Source: Palleronia aestuarii
GTDB taxonomy: Bacteria > Pseudomonadota > Alphaproteobacteria > Rhodobacterales > Rhodobacteraceae
Length of the DNA stretch: 64,000 bases
Assembly: GCF_003253995.1 (NCBI RefSeq)
Contig: NZ_QKZL01000001.1
Span: forward strand, 310,001-374,000
Reading direction: 5' to 3'
How positions within the stretch are numbered: the first letter of the stretch is position 1; every line of letters begins with the position of its first letter. A program made the position numbers and the translations under genes. Below the pieces are notes generated by a model. The model ran no database searches. It was not told the origin of the DNA and was given only the letters and a program-made list of their open reading frames with translations. Shown piece by piece: positions 3,521 through 61,831 of this stretch.

Positions 3521-4245
3521 GCCTTTTCGAGGCGCGCGATGTCGTCGCGGGCTACAGCCCCACCGACATGATCCTGAAGGGCGTGACGGTGACCGCGGCG
3601 GTTGGCGAGATCGTCGCGATCATCGGCCCGAACGGCGCGGGCAAGTCCACCCTCCTGAAATCCGCGGCCGGACAGGTCCACGTCGCCAAGGGCGATATCT
3701 CGATCGACGGGCGCAAGATCACTGGCCTGCGCCCGCGTGACGTCGCCGCGGCGGGCGTGGCCTACGTGCCGCAGGAGCAGAACGTCTTCACGACGATGAC
3801 CGTGCGGGAGAACCTAGAGATCGGCGGCTATGTCGATGCCGCGGGCAGTCGCGACCGGATCGACGCCGCGCTCCGACGCTTTCCCGTTCTGGGTGAAAAG
3901 GCCCGCGACGCGGCACGGACCCTGTCGGGCGGGCAGCGACAGCTCCTCGCGATGGCCATTGCGATGATGGTCGCGCCGCGGGTCCTGCTTCTCGACGAGC
4001 CGTCGGCGGGATTGTCGCCGGTGGCCGCGCGGGACATGTTCGCGACCATTCGCGAGATCGCGGATGGCGGCGTGGCCGTGGTCCTCGTGGAGCAGAACGC
4101 CCTCGATGCGCTCGATCTCGCGGACCGCGCCTACATCCTTGCCGCGGGACAGAACCATACCGAAGGGACGGGGGCCGATCTGGCCGCCGATCCCGATATC
4201 CGCCGCACCTTCCTGGGCGGCCGCCAAACGGGAGACCAGCGATGA
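3517..4245 (+). CDS. Branched-chain-amino-acid-type ABC transporter ATP-binding protein (LivF family)
   Basis: 242 aa. It begins MSLFEARDVVAGY at the ATGA overlap with the preceding ATPase, which decides the start over the longer frame from 3409. Walker A GPNGAGKST, the LivF-type YVPQEQNVFTTMTVREN, signature LSGGQRQ and Walker B LLLDEPSAGL are all present, so it should be catalytically competent. It forms a heterodimer with the LivG-type subunit on the cytoplasmic side of the importer. The end overlaps the start of the binding-protein gene at 4242, again with the ATGA arrangement. Confidence 0.92.
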   Translation: MSLFEARDVVAGYSPTDMILKGVTVTAAVGEIVAIIGPNGAGKSTLLKSAAGQVHVAKGDISIDGRKITGLRPRDVAAAGVAYVPQEQNVFTTMTVRENLEIGGYVDAAGSRDRIDAALRRFPVLGEKARDAARTLSGGQRQLLAMAIAMMVAPRVLLLDEPSAGLSPVAARDMFATIREIADGGVAVVLVEQNALDALDLADRAYILAAGQNHTEGTGADLAADPDIRRTFLGGRQTGDQR

Positions 4246-5432
4246 TTGGCACTTGCAGACCGACCCGCCGCGCCGCGCTTGCGGGGCTTGCCGCCGCGCT
4301 CGCCGCGCCTTCGATCGTCCGCGCGCAGGAGGGGGCCATCCGGTTCGGGACGCTCACGCCGCTGACCGGCACCGGCGGCACCTACGGACCGGCCATGCGT
4401 GATGCCGTCATCGGCGCGGTGAGGGCGGTGAACGCGAATGGCGGCCTGCTCGGTCGTCAGATCCAGATCGTCTCCGAGGATACGCAGACATCGCCCGAAG
4501 CCGCGGTGCGGGCCGCGCGCAAGCTCATCGATGTCGACGGGGTCGCGGCGATCATGGGCACGTGGGCCTCTTCGGTGACGACCGCCGTCGCGCCGTTATG
4601 CTGGGAGAGCAAAACGATGCTCTTCACCGTCTCGGGCGCGGACAGCATCACCCAGCTTCCCCACCAAGGCTTCATCGCGAGGACCCAACCGAACTCACAG
4701 TTGCAGATCGAGGTCGCGAGCCGGTTCATGGTCGATCAGGGCGGGACCTCCTTCGCGTGGATCGGACCGCAGACGCCCTTCGCCCAGAGTTCGATCGACA
4801 TCCTCACCGCGGTCGCGGCGGAGGCCGGCATCGAGGTCGAGAGCCTGATCTACGAGGCGGAGAAGAGCACGTATCGCTCCGAGGTCGACACGATCCTGCG
4901 CAGCGATCCCGATTTCATCCAGCTTGGCGGTTACGCGGCCGACAGCACGGTTTTGCTGCGCGATCTCTGGCAGGCGGGCTACGAGGGCATGATCATCGGC
5001 CCGGCCTACGCGGTCAACGATTCCGTCGTCGAGGCTTTGCCGGCCGAGGTGCTGGAGGGCGTCTTCACCTGGGAAGGCGCGCCCGCCATCGACAGCGAAG
5101 CCTATGCCAACGTGCAGCAAATCCTCGGCGTCGAGACCGTGGACCCATATTCGGCCCAGACCTACGATCATGCCAACCTCGCCATGCTCGCCATCGGCAA
5201 GGCGGGAGCGTCATCGGGGCAGGCGATCCACGACCACCTGCGCGAGATCAGCCAGGGCAGCGGCCAGGCCACGGGAAGCGCCGTGAGCGGACTGGGCGTC
5301 CTGCCCGGCGACGTAAACTACGACGGGGCGAGCGGACCCTGCGATTTCGACGAAATCGGCGACATCACCGGCACTCAGTTCCTCTTCAAGCGTTTCGAGA
5401 ACGGCGCACCGGTGGAGTTCGAGCGGGTCTGA
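4242..5432 (+). CDS. Periplasmic substrate-binding protein of the Liv-type importer
   Basis: 396 aa of the periplasmic binding protein type I, Leu/Ile/Val-binding (HAAT) family. The N terminus has a twin-arginine-like start (TRRAALAGLAAALAAPSIVRAQ), so export by Tat or Sec to the periplasm is expected. The mature part opens with IRFGTLTPLTGTGGTYGPAMRDAV and contains AIMGTWASSVTTAVAPLCWE, the typical ligand-lobe segment. Placement between the ATPases and permeases, with overlapping start and stop codons on both sides, makes it the dedicated receptor. Relatives bind amino acids, amides or short peptides; specificity is not readable. Confidence 0.9.
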   Translation: MIGTCRPTRRAALAGLAAALAAPSIVRAQEGAIRFGTLTPLTGTGGTYGPAMRDAVIGAVRAVNANGGLLGRQIQIVSEDTQTSPEAAVRAARKLIDVDGVAAIMGTWASSVTTAVAPLCWESKTMLFTVSGADSITQLPHQGFIARTQPNSQLQIEVASRFMVDQGGTSFAWIGPQTPFAQSSIDILTAVAAEAGIEVESLIYEAEKSTYRSEVDTILRSDPDFIQLGGYAADSTVLLRDLWQAGYEGMIIGPAYAVNDSVVEALPAEVLEGVFTWEGAPAIDSEAYANVQQILGVETVDPYSAQTYDHANLAMLAIGKAGASSGQAIHDHLREISQGSGQATGSAVSGLGVLPGDVNYDGASGPCDFDEIGDITGTQFLFKRFENGAPVEFERV

Positions 5433-56608: not shown

Positions 56609-60987
<4,379 letters not shown>

Positions 60988-61003: not shown

Positions 61004-61018
61004 GTTCTCATAAAGTTC
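61004..61018 (+). promoter_or_regulatory. LexA/SOS box GTTC-N7-GTTC
   Basis: GTTCTCATAAAGTTC is an exact match to the alphaproteobacterial LexA operator GTTC-N7-GTTC. It lies 59 bp before the start of a 39-codon ORF, in a 89-bp gap after recG; a GAAC occurs at 61042-61045. Confidence 0.75.
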
Positions 61019-61076
61019 TTGCGAATCAATGCTCATAGTGAGAACAAATAGACAACATTCCACGAGGAGAACGCTC

Positions 61077-61196
61077 ATGATGACCGATTTCGTCGCTGCG
61101 CTGTCGCGGTCCGACACGCTTCTGGAAGATTTCGCTGGGGCCTCCGCGATCGCCGCCCTGCTCGTGGCAGGTCTCTACCTGCCGGGACTTGTCTGA
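61077..61196 (+). CDS. SOS-controlled small membrane protein (39 aa)
   Basis: MMTDFVAALSRSDTLLEDFA followed by a hydrophobic C terminus (GASAIAALLVAGLYLPGLV), so an amphipathic/acidic N-terminal part and one likely membrane helix. GAGGAG lies about 6 bases before ATG 61077, a LexA box lies upstream and an intrinsic terminator downstream, making a self-contained unit. By architecture it resembles Caulobacter SidA, a LexA-controlled membrane peptide inhibiting division, but I see no clear sequence similarity. Function is inferred only. Confidence 0.65.
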   Translation: MMTDFVAALSRSDTLLEDFAGASAIAALLVAGLYLPGLV

Positions 61197-61330
61197 CCCG
61201 GGGGATTTCTTTCTGCCTGCGTACCGGTCGCACCGGTCCCATCTTTTGCCTCCCCAGGTTCGACGGGACGCAAGCGCCTTCCGATCCGGGGTCCGTCTCG
61301 CCCCGACAGGAGGTTTCCGGTACGCCCCTG

Positions 61331-61366
61331 CCGCCGCCATCCGCCCGGATGCGCGGCGGTTTTTTT
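61331..61366 (+). terminator. Rho-independent terminator
   Basis: CCGCCGC/GCGGCGG outer stem (61331-61337, 61353-61359) with inner CATCC/GGATG pairing and a run of seven T (61360-61366). It ends the plus-strand unit of the SOS-box ORF, leaving about 134 nt of 3' untranslated RNA. It lies just beyond the 3' end of the minus-strand NifU-like gene. Confidence 0.88.
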
Positions 61367-61381
61367 ATTAAAGTATTGCGG

Positions 61382-61831
61382 TCAGGCGCCGGTCGTCTCT
61401 TCCGCCTTGGCAAAGGCTTCCGCGGTCGCCTCGATCGTCAGGAGGATGGAGGCGTGTCGGTTCTTGTAGTCCCGCGCCGGTTCCAGCACCTCGAACCCGT
61501 CGAAGGGGGCCTCGGGGACCGGACCACCGGATTTCAGCATCGCGCGGAGTTCGTCGCGGGCCCGTTCGATCTCGGCCTGCGTGCGGCCCAGAACGGAGCG
61601 TCCGACGATCGCCGCGGCGGCCTGACCGAGCGCACAGGCTTTTACGTCCTGCGCGAAGGCCGAGACGCGGCCGTCCTCTACCCCGAGATCGACGATGACC
61701 GACGAGCCGCAGAGAGGCGAGCGGCGCTTCACCGTCGCGGCCGGCGCGTCGAGCCGCCCCGTCATCGGAATGTCGGCCGCGAGTTCGAGGATGCGCCCGG
61801 AATAGAGTTTGATCATGTCGCTGTCGGCCAT
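61382..61831 (-). CDS. NifU-like iron-sulfur cluster scaffold-type protein
   Basis: 149 aa of the IscU/SufU/NifU-N fold. RRSPLCGSSVIVDLGVEDGRVSAFAQDVKACALGQAAAAIVG has the LCGS and CALGQA motifs carrying two of the scaffold cysteines. The third canonical Cys is not obvious in the C-terminal half, so Fe-S scaffolding is uncertain and a sulfur-transfer or Zn role is possible. ATG 61831 matches the family start. Divergent from hisI by 65 bp. Confidence 0.82.
   Translation of the reverse strand: MADSDMIKLYSGRILELAADIPMTGRLDAPAATVKRRSPLCGSSVIVDLGVEDGRVSAFAQDVKACALGQAAAAIVGRSVLGRTQAEIERARDELRAMLKSGGPVPEAPFDGFEVLEPARDYKNRHASILLTIEATAEAFAKAEETTGA

Follow-up and report, generated by a model that had tools for sequence, protein, structure and literature searches.

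A conserved small-protein gene with a structured 3' RNA behind putative LexA operators, downstream of recG in Rhodobacteraceae

The unit downstream of recG and its putative operators

In the 64,000-nucleotide (nt) stretch of the Palleronia aestuarii genome considered here (contig NZ_QKZL01000001.1; hereafter, the window), recG is followed, in this order, by a LexA-type box, a Shine-Dalgarno sequence, a 39-codon open reading frame (ORF) and a terminator, which together occupy positions 61004–61366 (Table 1). An earlier note, made from the letters of the window, had described these elements as a self-contained unit, and all of them, including the hydrophobic end of the ORF product and the recG neighbour, are present in the sequence; the last 19 residues are the most hydrophobic of the peptide, with a mean Kyte-Doolittle value of 1.89. 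Comparison across the Rhodobacteraceae, a name used here in its broad sense, confirms the unit and extends it beyond the first description, as it also comprises a second, imperfect operator in front of the ORF and a structured RNA behind it. That a conserved unit with these two parts, peptide and RNA, exists is in our judgement practically certain.

Taken alone, the box proves nothing, because a single GTTC-N7-GTTC per 64-kb window is what sequence shuffling predicts (mean 1.47), and with such a chance rate it was rejected as evidence in its own right. Its conservation is a different matter. A single-sequence search with the peptide in 149 genomes of the family gave 45 matches, and in all of the 30 loci that were read, the one in the window included, a GTTC-N7-GTTC box lies 70–115 nt 5' of the ATG; given how densely such boxes occur in the P. 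aestuarii genome, chance would place about 0.09 there over all the loci. The conservation of the box that the earlier note had proposed to check is thus confirmed. Two overlapping boxes also occur at the lexA gene of this genome, arranged in tandem as GAAC-N7-GAAC-N7-GAAC (locus L236, 1447–1472), and one at its recA; GTTC-N7-GTTC is therefore likely to be the local LexA operator, as judged from these sequences.

The promoter region is conserved well beyond this box. Among 56 distinct loci found through the protein, the consensus reads GTTC-N6-GTTC-N7-GTTC-TTTACA ... TGAGAACAAAnnggCAACA, with TTTACA adjoining operator 1 in 40 of them (the window has TTGCGA) and an additional GTTC ten bases further upstream in 50, the window being without it. 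Of the 56 loci, 55 also have a second box in inverted orientation, GAAC-N7-(G/C)AAC, which follows operator 1 by exactly 23 nt in 54 and takes the exact form GAAC-N7-GAAC in three. When public genome contigs were scanned with the promoter pattern alone, blind to the protein, at least 118 stretches were recovered, whose named records belong either to genera of the Rhodobacteraceae or to unclassified alphaproteobacterial metagenome-assembled genomes (MAGs). Among the matches listed, 115 of 118 encode the peptide and 115 of 118 have recG directly upstream, in agreement with the expected synteny, these counts not being fully independent of those above since some genomes are present in both sets, as with L045 and L185, whose contigs are equally long; all three stretches lacking the peptide and two of the three lacking recG lie at slice edges. 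In locus L220, from a Pseudoprimorskyibacter MAG, promoter and peptide (approximately 4139–4330) are found, but a search of the 3 kb upstream gave no recG, and either a relocated copy or an assembly break is possible. The promoter pattern has no exact match in viral contigs, and no box stands behind recG in 28 outgroup recG loci. LexA sites have been reported for recG in some alphaproteobacteria, in a set that includes Rhodobacter sphaeroides and Paracoccus denitrificans (PMC3323433), and these concern recG itself, that is, the gene in front of the unit; the main text of a LexA study in Dinoroseobacter, as far as accessible, mentions neither recG nor sidA (PMC6473078).

Table 1. Features of the unit and its upstream anchor in the window
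Feature	Position	Strand	Basis or remark
recG	58903-60987	+	upstream synteny anchor, outside the transcript unit proper; Pfam RecG wedge, DEAD, Helicase_C, RecG_dom3_C
LexA operator 1 (putative), GTTC-N7-GTTC, GTTCTCATAAAGTTC	61004-61018	+	exact match, 16 nt past the recG stop
-35-like element TTGCGA, abutting operator 1	61019-61024	+	putative promoter role
LexA operator 2 (putative), inverted, imperfect, GAAC-N7-CAAC	61042-61056	-	putative operator role
Shine-Dalgarno GAGGAG	61064-61069	+	sequence
39-codon ORF, product MMTDFVAALSRSDTLLEDFAGASAIAALLVAGLYLPGLV	61077-61196	+	alignment, profile matches, pN<pS, AlphaFold2
Structured 3' RNA: stem P1 closing three hairpins, then terminator	61206-61366	+	covariance model, covariation, alignment-free tests
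CUGCCUG motif, 5' foot of P1, proposed seed	61213-61219	+	last two bases paired in P1
P1 5' arm GCGTACCGG	61219-61227	+	exact reverse complement of 61317-61325
P1 3' arm CCGGTACGC	61317-61325	+	exact reverse complement of 61219-61227
Intrinsic terminator, G+C-rich stem-loop and U7 tail	61331-61366	+	sequence; consensus helix 11, 95.6% of cells paired

The terminator of the window was not listed by a simple terminator scan and is shown by the sequence and the covariance model described below. Downstream, a convergent gene on the minus strand (61385–61831) encodes a 149-residue product, presumably similar to iron-sulfur scaffold-type proteins, for which no Pfam match was obtained at E ≤1e-3.

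A family-restricted peptide and a structured 3' RNA

A profile, A1, built from 30 members of the peptide family, in whose alignment D18, G21, L33 and P36 are invariant, matches 342 of 394 family genomes, twice in four of these and once in the others; counted by genera, the peptide is found in 341 of 393 sampled. In an order-level draw, 180 of 196 genomes were matched, every one of them from the same family, and a class-level draw of 289 yielded matches in its four family members and in none of the 285 alphaproteobacteria outside the family. At the search sensitivity used, the peptide gene is thus a family-restricted core gene. The genomes with two profile matches each (G046, G215, G342 and G383 in the first set, and G440 in the order-level draw) possibly have a second copy.

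Genomes with no profile match (22) or a weak one (three) were followed up at recG, which could be located in 21 of the 25. At 14 of these 21 loci (12 of 18 from genomes with no match), recG is followed by a box and by a small ORF whose product has a hydrophobic C-terminus, homology in the genomes without a profile match resting on place and pattern. A small hydrophobic ORF with no exact forward box follows recG at two loci (L103 and L104), and neither box nor hydrophobic small ORF was found after recG at the remaining five (L108, L109, L111, L114 and L115). The latter may be natural losses or moves and are potentially informative for the link to ftsZ considered below.

Loss of the frame or lack of purifying selection, which the earlier note had named as evidence that would speak against the unit, is not what is observed. 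In 24 independent close pairs from 161 distinct coding sequences, de-duplicated by identical sequence, the mean proportion of nonsynonymous differences (pN) is 0.094 against 0.404 for synonymous ones (pS), a pN/pS of about 0.23, and pN is smaller than pS in 23 of the 24. The ORF is therefore under purifying selection. For the 39-residue peptide, AlphaFold2 predicts helices at residues 2–11 and 13–38 (mean predicted local distance difference test score 88; predicted template modelling score 0.47), which suggests a short N-terminal helix followed by one transmembrane-like helix and hence a probable location in the membrane. The peptide has no significant relative in Pfam, NCBIfam, PHROGs or the PDB; the weak matches are to Pfam PsbI (E 0.13, in one of three proteins) and NCBIfam YgaH (E 0.0063, in one of 30 members). 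The comparison therefore supports the view that Rhodobacteraceae conserve a gene for a small, membrane-type peptide behind putative LexA operators.

The region behind the ORF is conserved as well. A terminator was detected in 147 of the 161 members (in 50 with a stricter finder), its T run ending at a median of 181 nt past the stop codon, and in the 147 trimmed 3' untranslated regions (3'UTRs), CTGCCTG is present in 121, where mononucleotide shuffles would give 0.033 per UTR, and TGTCCC in 117. RNAalifold recovered only the terminator from a MAFFT alignment of 50 diverse 3'UTRs; the remaining structure was resolved with a seed of 16 closer sequences and then a covariance model, R1. In the consensus fold, three hairpins whose loops are C-rich lie inside the stem P1, and the terminator comes next, the C-rich motifs CUGCCUG and CUGUCCC being largely, not wholly, unpaired. 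R1 recognizes the window, which is not in its seed, with 57.1 bits (E 2.9e-14), the second-best match in the window having an E of 0.035 and not lying near. At E ≤1e-3, R1 finds 42 of 45 non-seed loci found through the protein, missing L036, L039 and L056, and 87 of 100 promoter-scan loci scored (of at least 118), giving 88 rows, since L197 occurs twice, some of them short.

With these 88 rows aligned, pairing is kept in 89.7% of cells and both sides have changed in 841, against 246.5 after shuffling; the covariation score is 0.406, compared with 0.120 for shuffled and 0.045–0.076 for slid alignments. As the alignment leans to the model and contains an antisense row of L197, tests independent of any alignment were added. 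The two arms of P1 pair with a mean of -25.4 kcal/mol within a genome, -17.0 when arms are exchanged across genomes and -15.5 when they are shuffled, and in 78 of 133 genomes (133 of the 147 being usable) the own partner ranks within the best 5%; moreover, the RNA core minus its terminator has a mean folding z of -3.06, with z < -2 in 60 of 70 sampled. The 3' region is thus a conserved structured RNA with compensatory changes, lying in the 3'UTR of a small-protein messenger RNA (mRNA) behind a putative LexA operator.

Rfam 15 has no match for this RNA at the gathering score, the only threshold match in the window being a tRNA elsewhere. Five sub-threshold matches fall within 61073–61366, the best of them (hya, on the minus strand) scoring 21.4 bits where the gathering score is 56.8, and homology to an Rfam family was rejected. 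The best E of R1 is 0.13 in the 28 outgroup recG loci taken together with 19 further loci that have a box, and no match outside the family is convincing. Six of 240 class genomes give an R1 match at E ≤1e-3, and three of these are family members; in the other three, out of 237 outside the family, the four matches (E 1e-4 to 1e-3) cover terminators only and have no box. Weak relatives outside the family could be missed by this search, because its filters were strict and ten candidates were scored per genome.

Known counterparts and the proposed dual function

Several characterized systems resemble parts of this unit. SidA of Caulobacter crescentus, a LexA-controlled peptide of 29 residues, stops division and binds FtsW and FtsN in two-hybrid assays (PMC4211646). 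Set against SidA by description, the unit shares the GTTC-N7-GTTC operator, the (here presumed) LexA control, the very small inner-membrane peptide and the alphaproteobacterial host (PMC4211646, PMC12700426), and its box together with one predicted hydrophobic C-terminal helix suggests a LexA-controlled, very small single-pass peptide. Unlike SidA, the peptide has 39–40 residues and a further, N-terminal helix in front of the one predicted for the membrane, the gene sits after recG, and a structured RNA is carried on the transcript. For the RNA half, the closest parallel is DinR of Klebsiella pneumoniae, a LexA-controlled, Klebsiella-specific small RNA (sRNA) from the 3'UTR of dinI that represses ftsZ near the ribosome-binding site (PMC10907235). 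Both RNAs form the 3' part of a message for a small protein, with a LexA operator (putative in the present case) in front, whereas the RNA described here is multi-hairpin, widespread in another family and differently located, and its link to ftsZ consists of complementarity. In the dicBF operon of E. coli, a peptide (DicB) and an sRNA (DicF) encoded together both regulate host cell division (PMC10448788); in contrast to that operon, which belongs to a cryptic prophage, the unit is fixed at one place across the family and lies behind putative LexA operators. Finally, UdsC of R. sphaeroides, from the same family, is likewise located in the 3'UTR of a small-protein mRNA (RSP_7527). As a 67-nt sRNA depending on an RpoHII promoter (PMC9779115, PMC8625941), it was rejected as the same RNA on length and regulation, by description, the accessible part of PMC9779115 making no mention of LexA.

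With a conserved structured RNA at the 3' end, the dual mRNA/sRNA alternative raised in the earlier note fits best and is strongly backed by the comparative RNA structure. Our preferred explanation, to which we give a probability of roughly 0.45, is therefore a LexA-repressed dual-function gene for a peptide and a base-pairing RNA. In the undamaged cell, LexA would sit on the two inverted operators that flank the promoter, and its cleavage upon DNA damage would release one short transcript. The 5' half of this transcript would be translated into an inner-membrane peptide of 39–40 residues, whose probable role, like that of SidA in Caulobacter, is to bind a late division protein and hold it back; that the peptide is a division inhibitor at all we put slightly short of even odds. 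The 3' half, the P1-closed RNA with its three hairpins and terminator, would expose the repeated CUGCCUG/CUGUCCC motifs and, either attached or after processing, probably base-pair with messages having complementary ribosome-binding sites, among which ftsZ would be the leading candidate.

The ftsZ link and rival explanations

Given the precedents of SidA and DinR, ftsZ was chosen as one target; it was picked before the leaders were fetched (26 family genomes, L275–L300) and is the sole target tested, while the motif strings, though taken from the RNA consensus, were set down after the ftsZ leaders had been read, and the control leaders were delimited with a crude ORF finder. In the 26 genomes, the ftsZ ribosome-binding site reads ACAGGCGGACAG before the AUG with little change, the preceding bases being variable, and CAGGCGGA is present in 25 of 26 ftsZ leaders and in one of 221 control leaders. 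CUGCCUG or CUGUCC can form at least eight contiguous pairs, with at most one G-U, in 25 of 26 ftsZ leaders, compared with seven of 221 controls, 72 of 1385 other leaders and no more than 25% in any of 19 ortholog groups. This complementarity is suggestive of a contact between the RNA motifs and the ftsZ message. The ftsZ site is in itself near-invariant and atypical, AGGAG being found in none of the 26 leaders, and may be under selection beyond ribosome binding. Self-regulation through the peptide's own ribosome-binding site gave no signal, as the RNA motifs reach eight pairs with it in none of 161 cases.

A number of observations weigh against this interpretation. By duplex energy, targeting of ftsZ is not supported: for the three motifs, 6.8%, 11.3% and 26.7% of the 221 control leaders equal the ftsZ median, and ftsZ ranks sixth of 13 genes in its region, so that the energies fail to single it out. 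Run-length scoring was adopted only after this energy test had failed and, since the ftsZ site is conserved, its 25 of 26 amount to about one observation with a background chance of 3–5%. Furthermore, the 5' motif is changed in L062 and L084, yet CAGGCGGACAG is retained at ftsZ in both genomes (ftsZ loci L300 and L286), and the ftsZ leader of the window genome itself is without GGACAG. As for the RNA, that of the window is divergent (57 bits, compared with up to 191), no more than 33 of 133 genomes have P1 arms that pair better with each other than with every one of 60 foreign arms sampled, and the structure might serve stability or protein binding instead. Overall, we regard the link of the 3' RNA to ftsZ as doubtful.

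The strongest contender, in our view unlikely but to be taken seriously, is that the peptide alone matters, as a SidA-like division inhibitor, and that the 3' RNA, lacking any target in trans, serves only to stabilize the message or to set its timing. The ORF does seem to outlast the RNA: among the 21 recG loci of genomes lacking a clear profile match, 14 of which keep box and hydrophobic ORF, seven are matched by R1 across the whole model at E ≤1e-3, three of these over only about 90–107 nt, and an eighth is matched in the terminator only. What such a role leaves unexplained is that the largely unpaired C-rich motifs, needless in a plain stability stem, are among the most conserved letters of the RNA outside the terminator.

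Quite unlikely, we consider, is an SOS-induced peptide of the type I toxin kind, as exemplified by TisB and DinQ of E. coli, which would lower the membrane potential and promote dormancy while the RNA tunes toxin translation. With these toxins the unit would share LexA control, presumed here, and a small single-helix membrane peptide (DinQ, PMC3567139; TisB, PMC8145889). TisB and DinQ, however, have antisense RNAs, of which neither the Rfam matches nor the pairing with the peptide's own site gives any sign here, and the RNA is not a classical antisense antitoxin, because it lies on the same strand as the peptide gene. The presence of the peptide in 342 of 394 family genomes, as one match in nearly all and behind recG at nearly all loci read, is also at odds with a toxin, as are the lack of the promoter pattern in viral contigs, the lack of a PHROG match and the lack of excess pairing between the motifs and the peptide's ribosome-binding site.

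A functional product consisting of the SOS-induced sRNA alone, with the ORF as a mere leader, would accord with the strong covariation and the conserved motifs of the RNA; coding selection in 23 of 24 pairs, the invariant residues and the retention of the ORF where the RNA has drifted make it very improbable. An ordinary recG 3' flank, in which LexA-like box and ORF arose by chance and the terminator is that of recG, could draw on the chance frequency of the box; it is already contradicted by the way in which both operators, the ORF and the RNA structure are conserved across the family.

To return to the dual-function gene, its most elaborate form would be a two-tier checkpoint on one SOS transcript, in which the peptide stalls the assembled divisome, the repeated motifs of a new multi-hairpin RNA family stop the synthesis of FtsZ, and both arms have co-evolved behind recG as the family's own checkpoint; we would bet against this full version. 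Among the open-access titles and beginnings of abstracts searched, which leave most subscription papers outside coverage, there is no report of the unit or of another SOS division inhibitor of Rhodobacteraceae. The unit combines a conserved micro-protein, found across hundreds of genera, with a conserved structured RNA, present in more than 100 loci read, and both are absent from Rfam, Pfam, NCBIfam and PHROGs. It is a small, widespread locus, usually with one match per genome, whose anatomy allows it to be deleted or split into peptide and RNA halves. It would be a rare bacterial stress message of which the coding part and the 3' part are both kept by selection, and in the Rhodobacteraceae both peptide and RNA may help to halt cell division until the DNA has been repaired.
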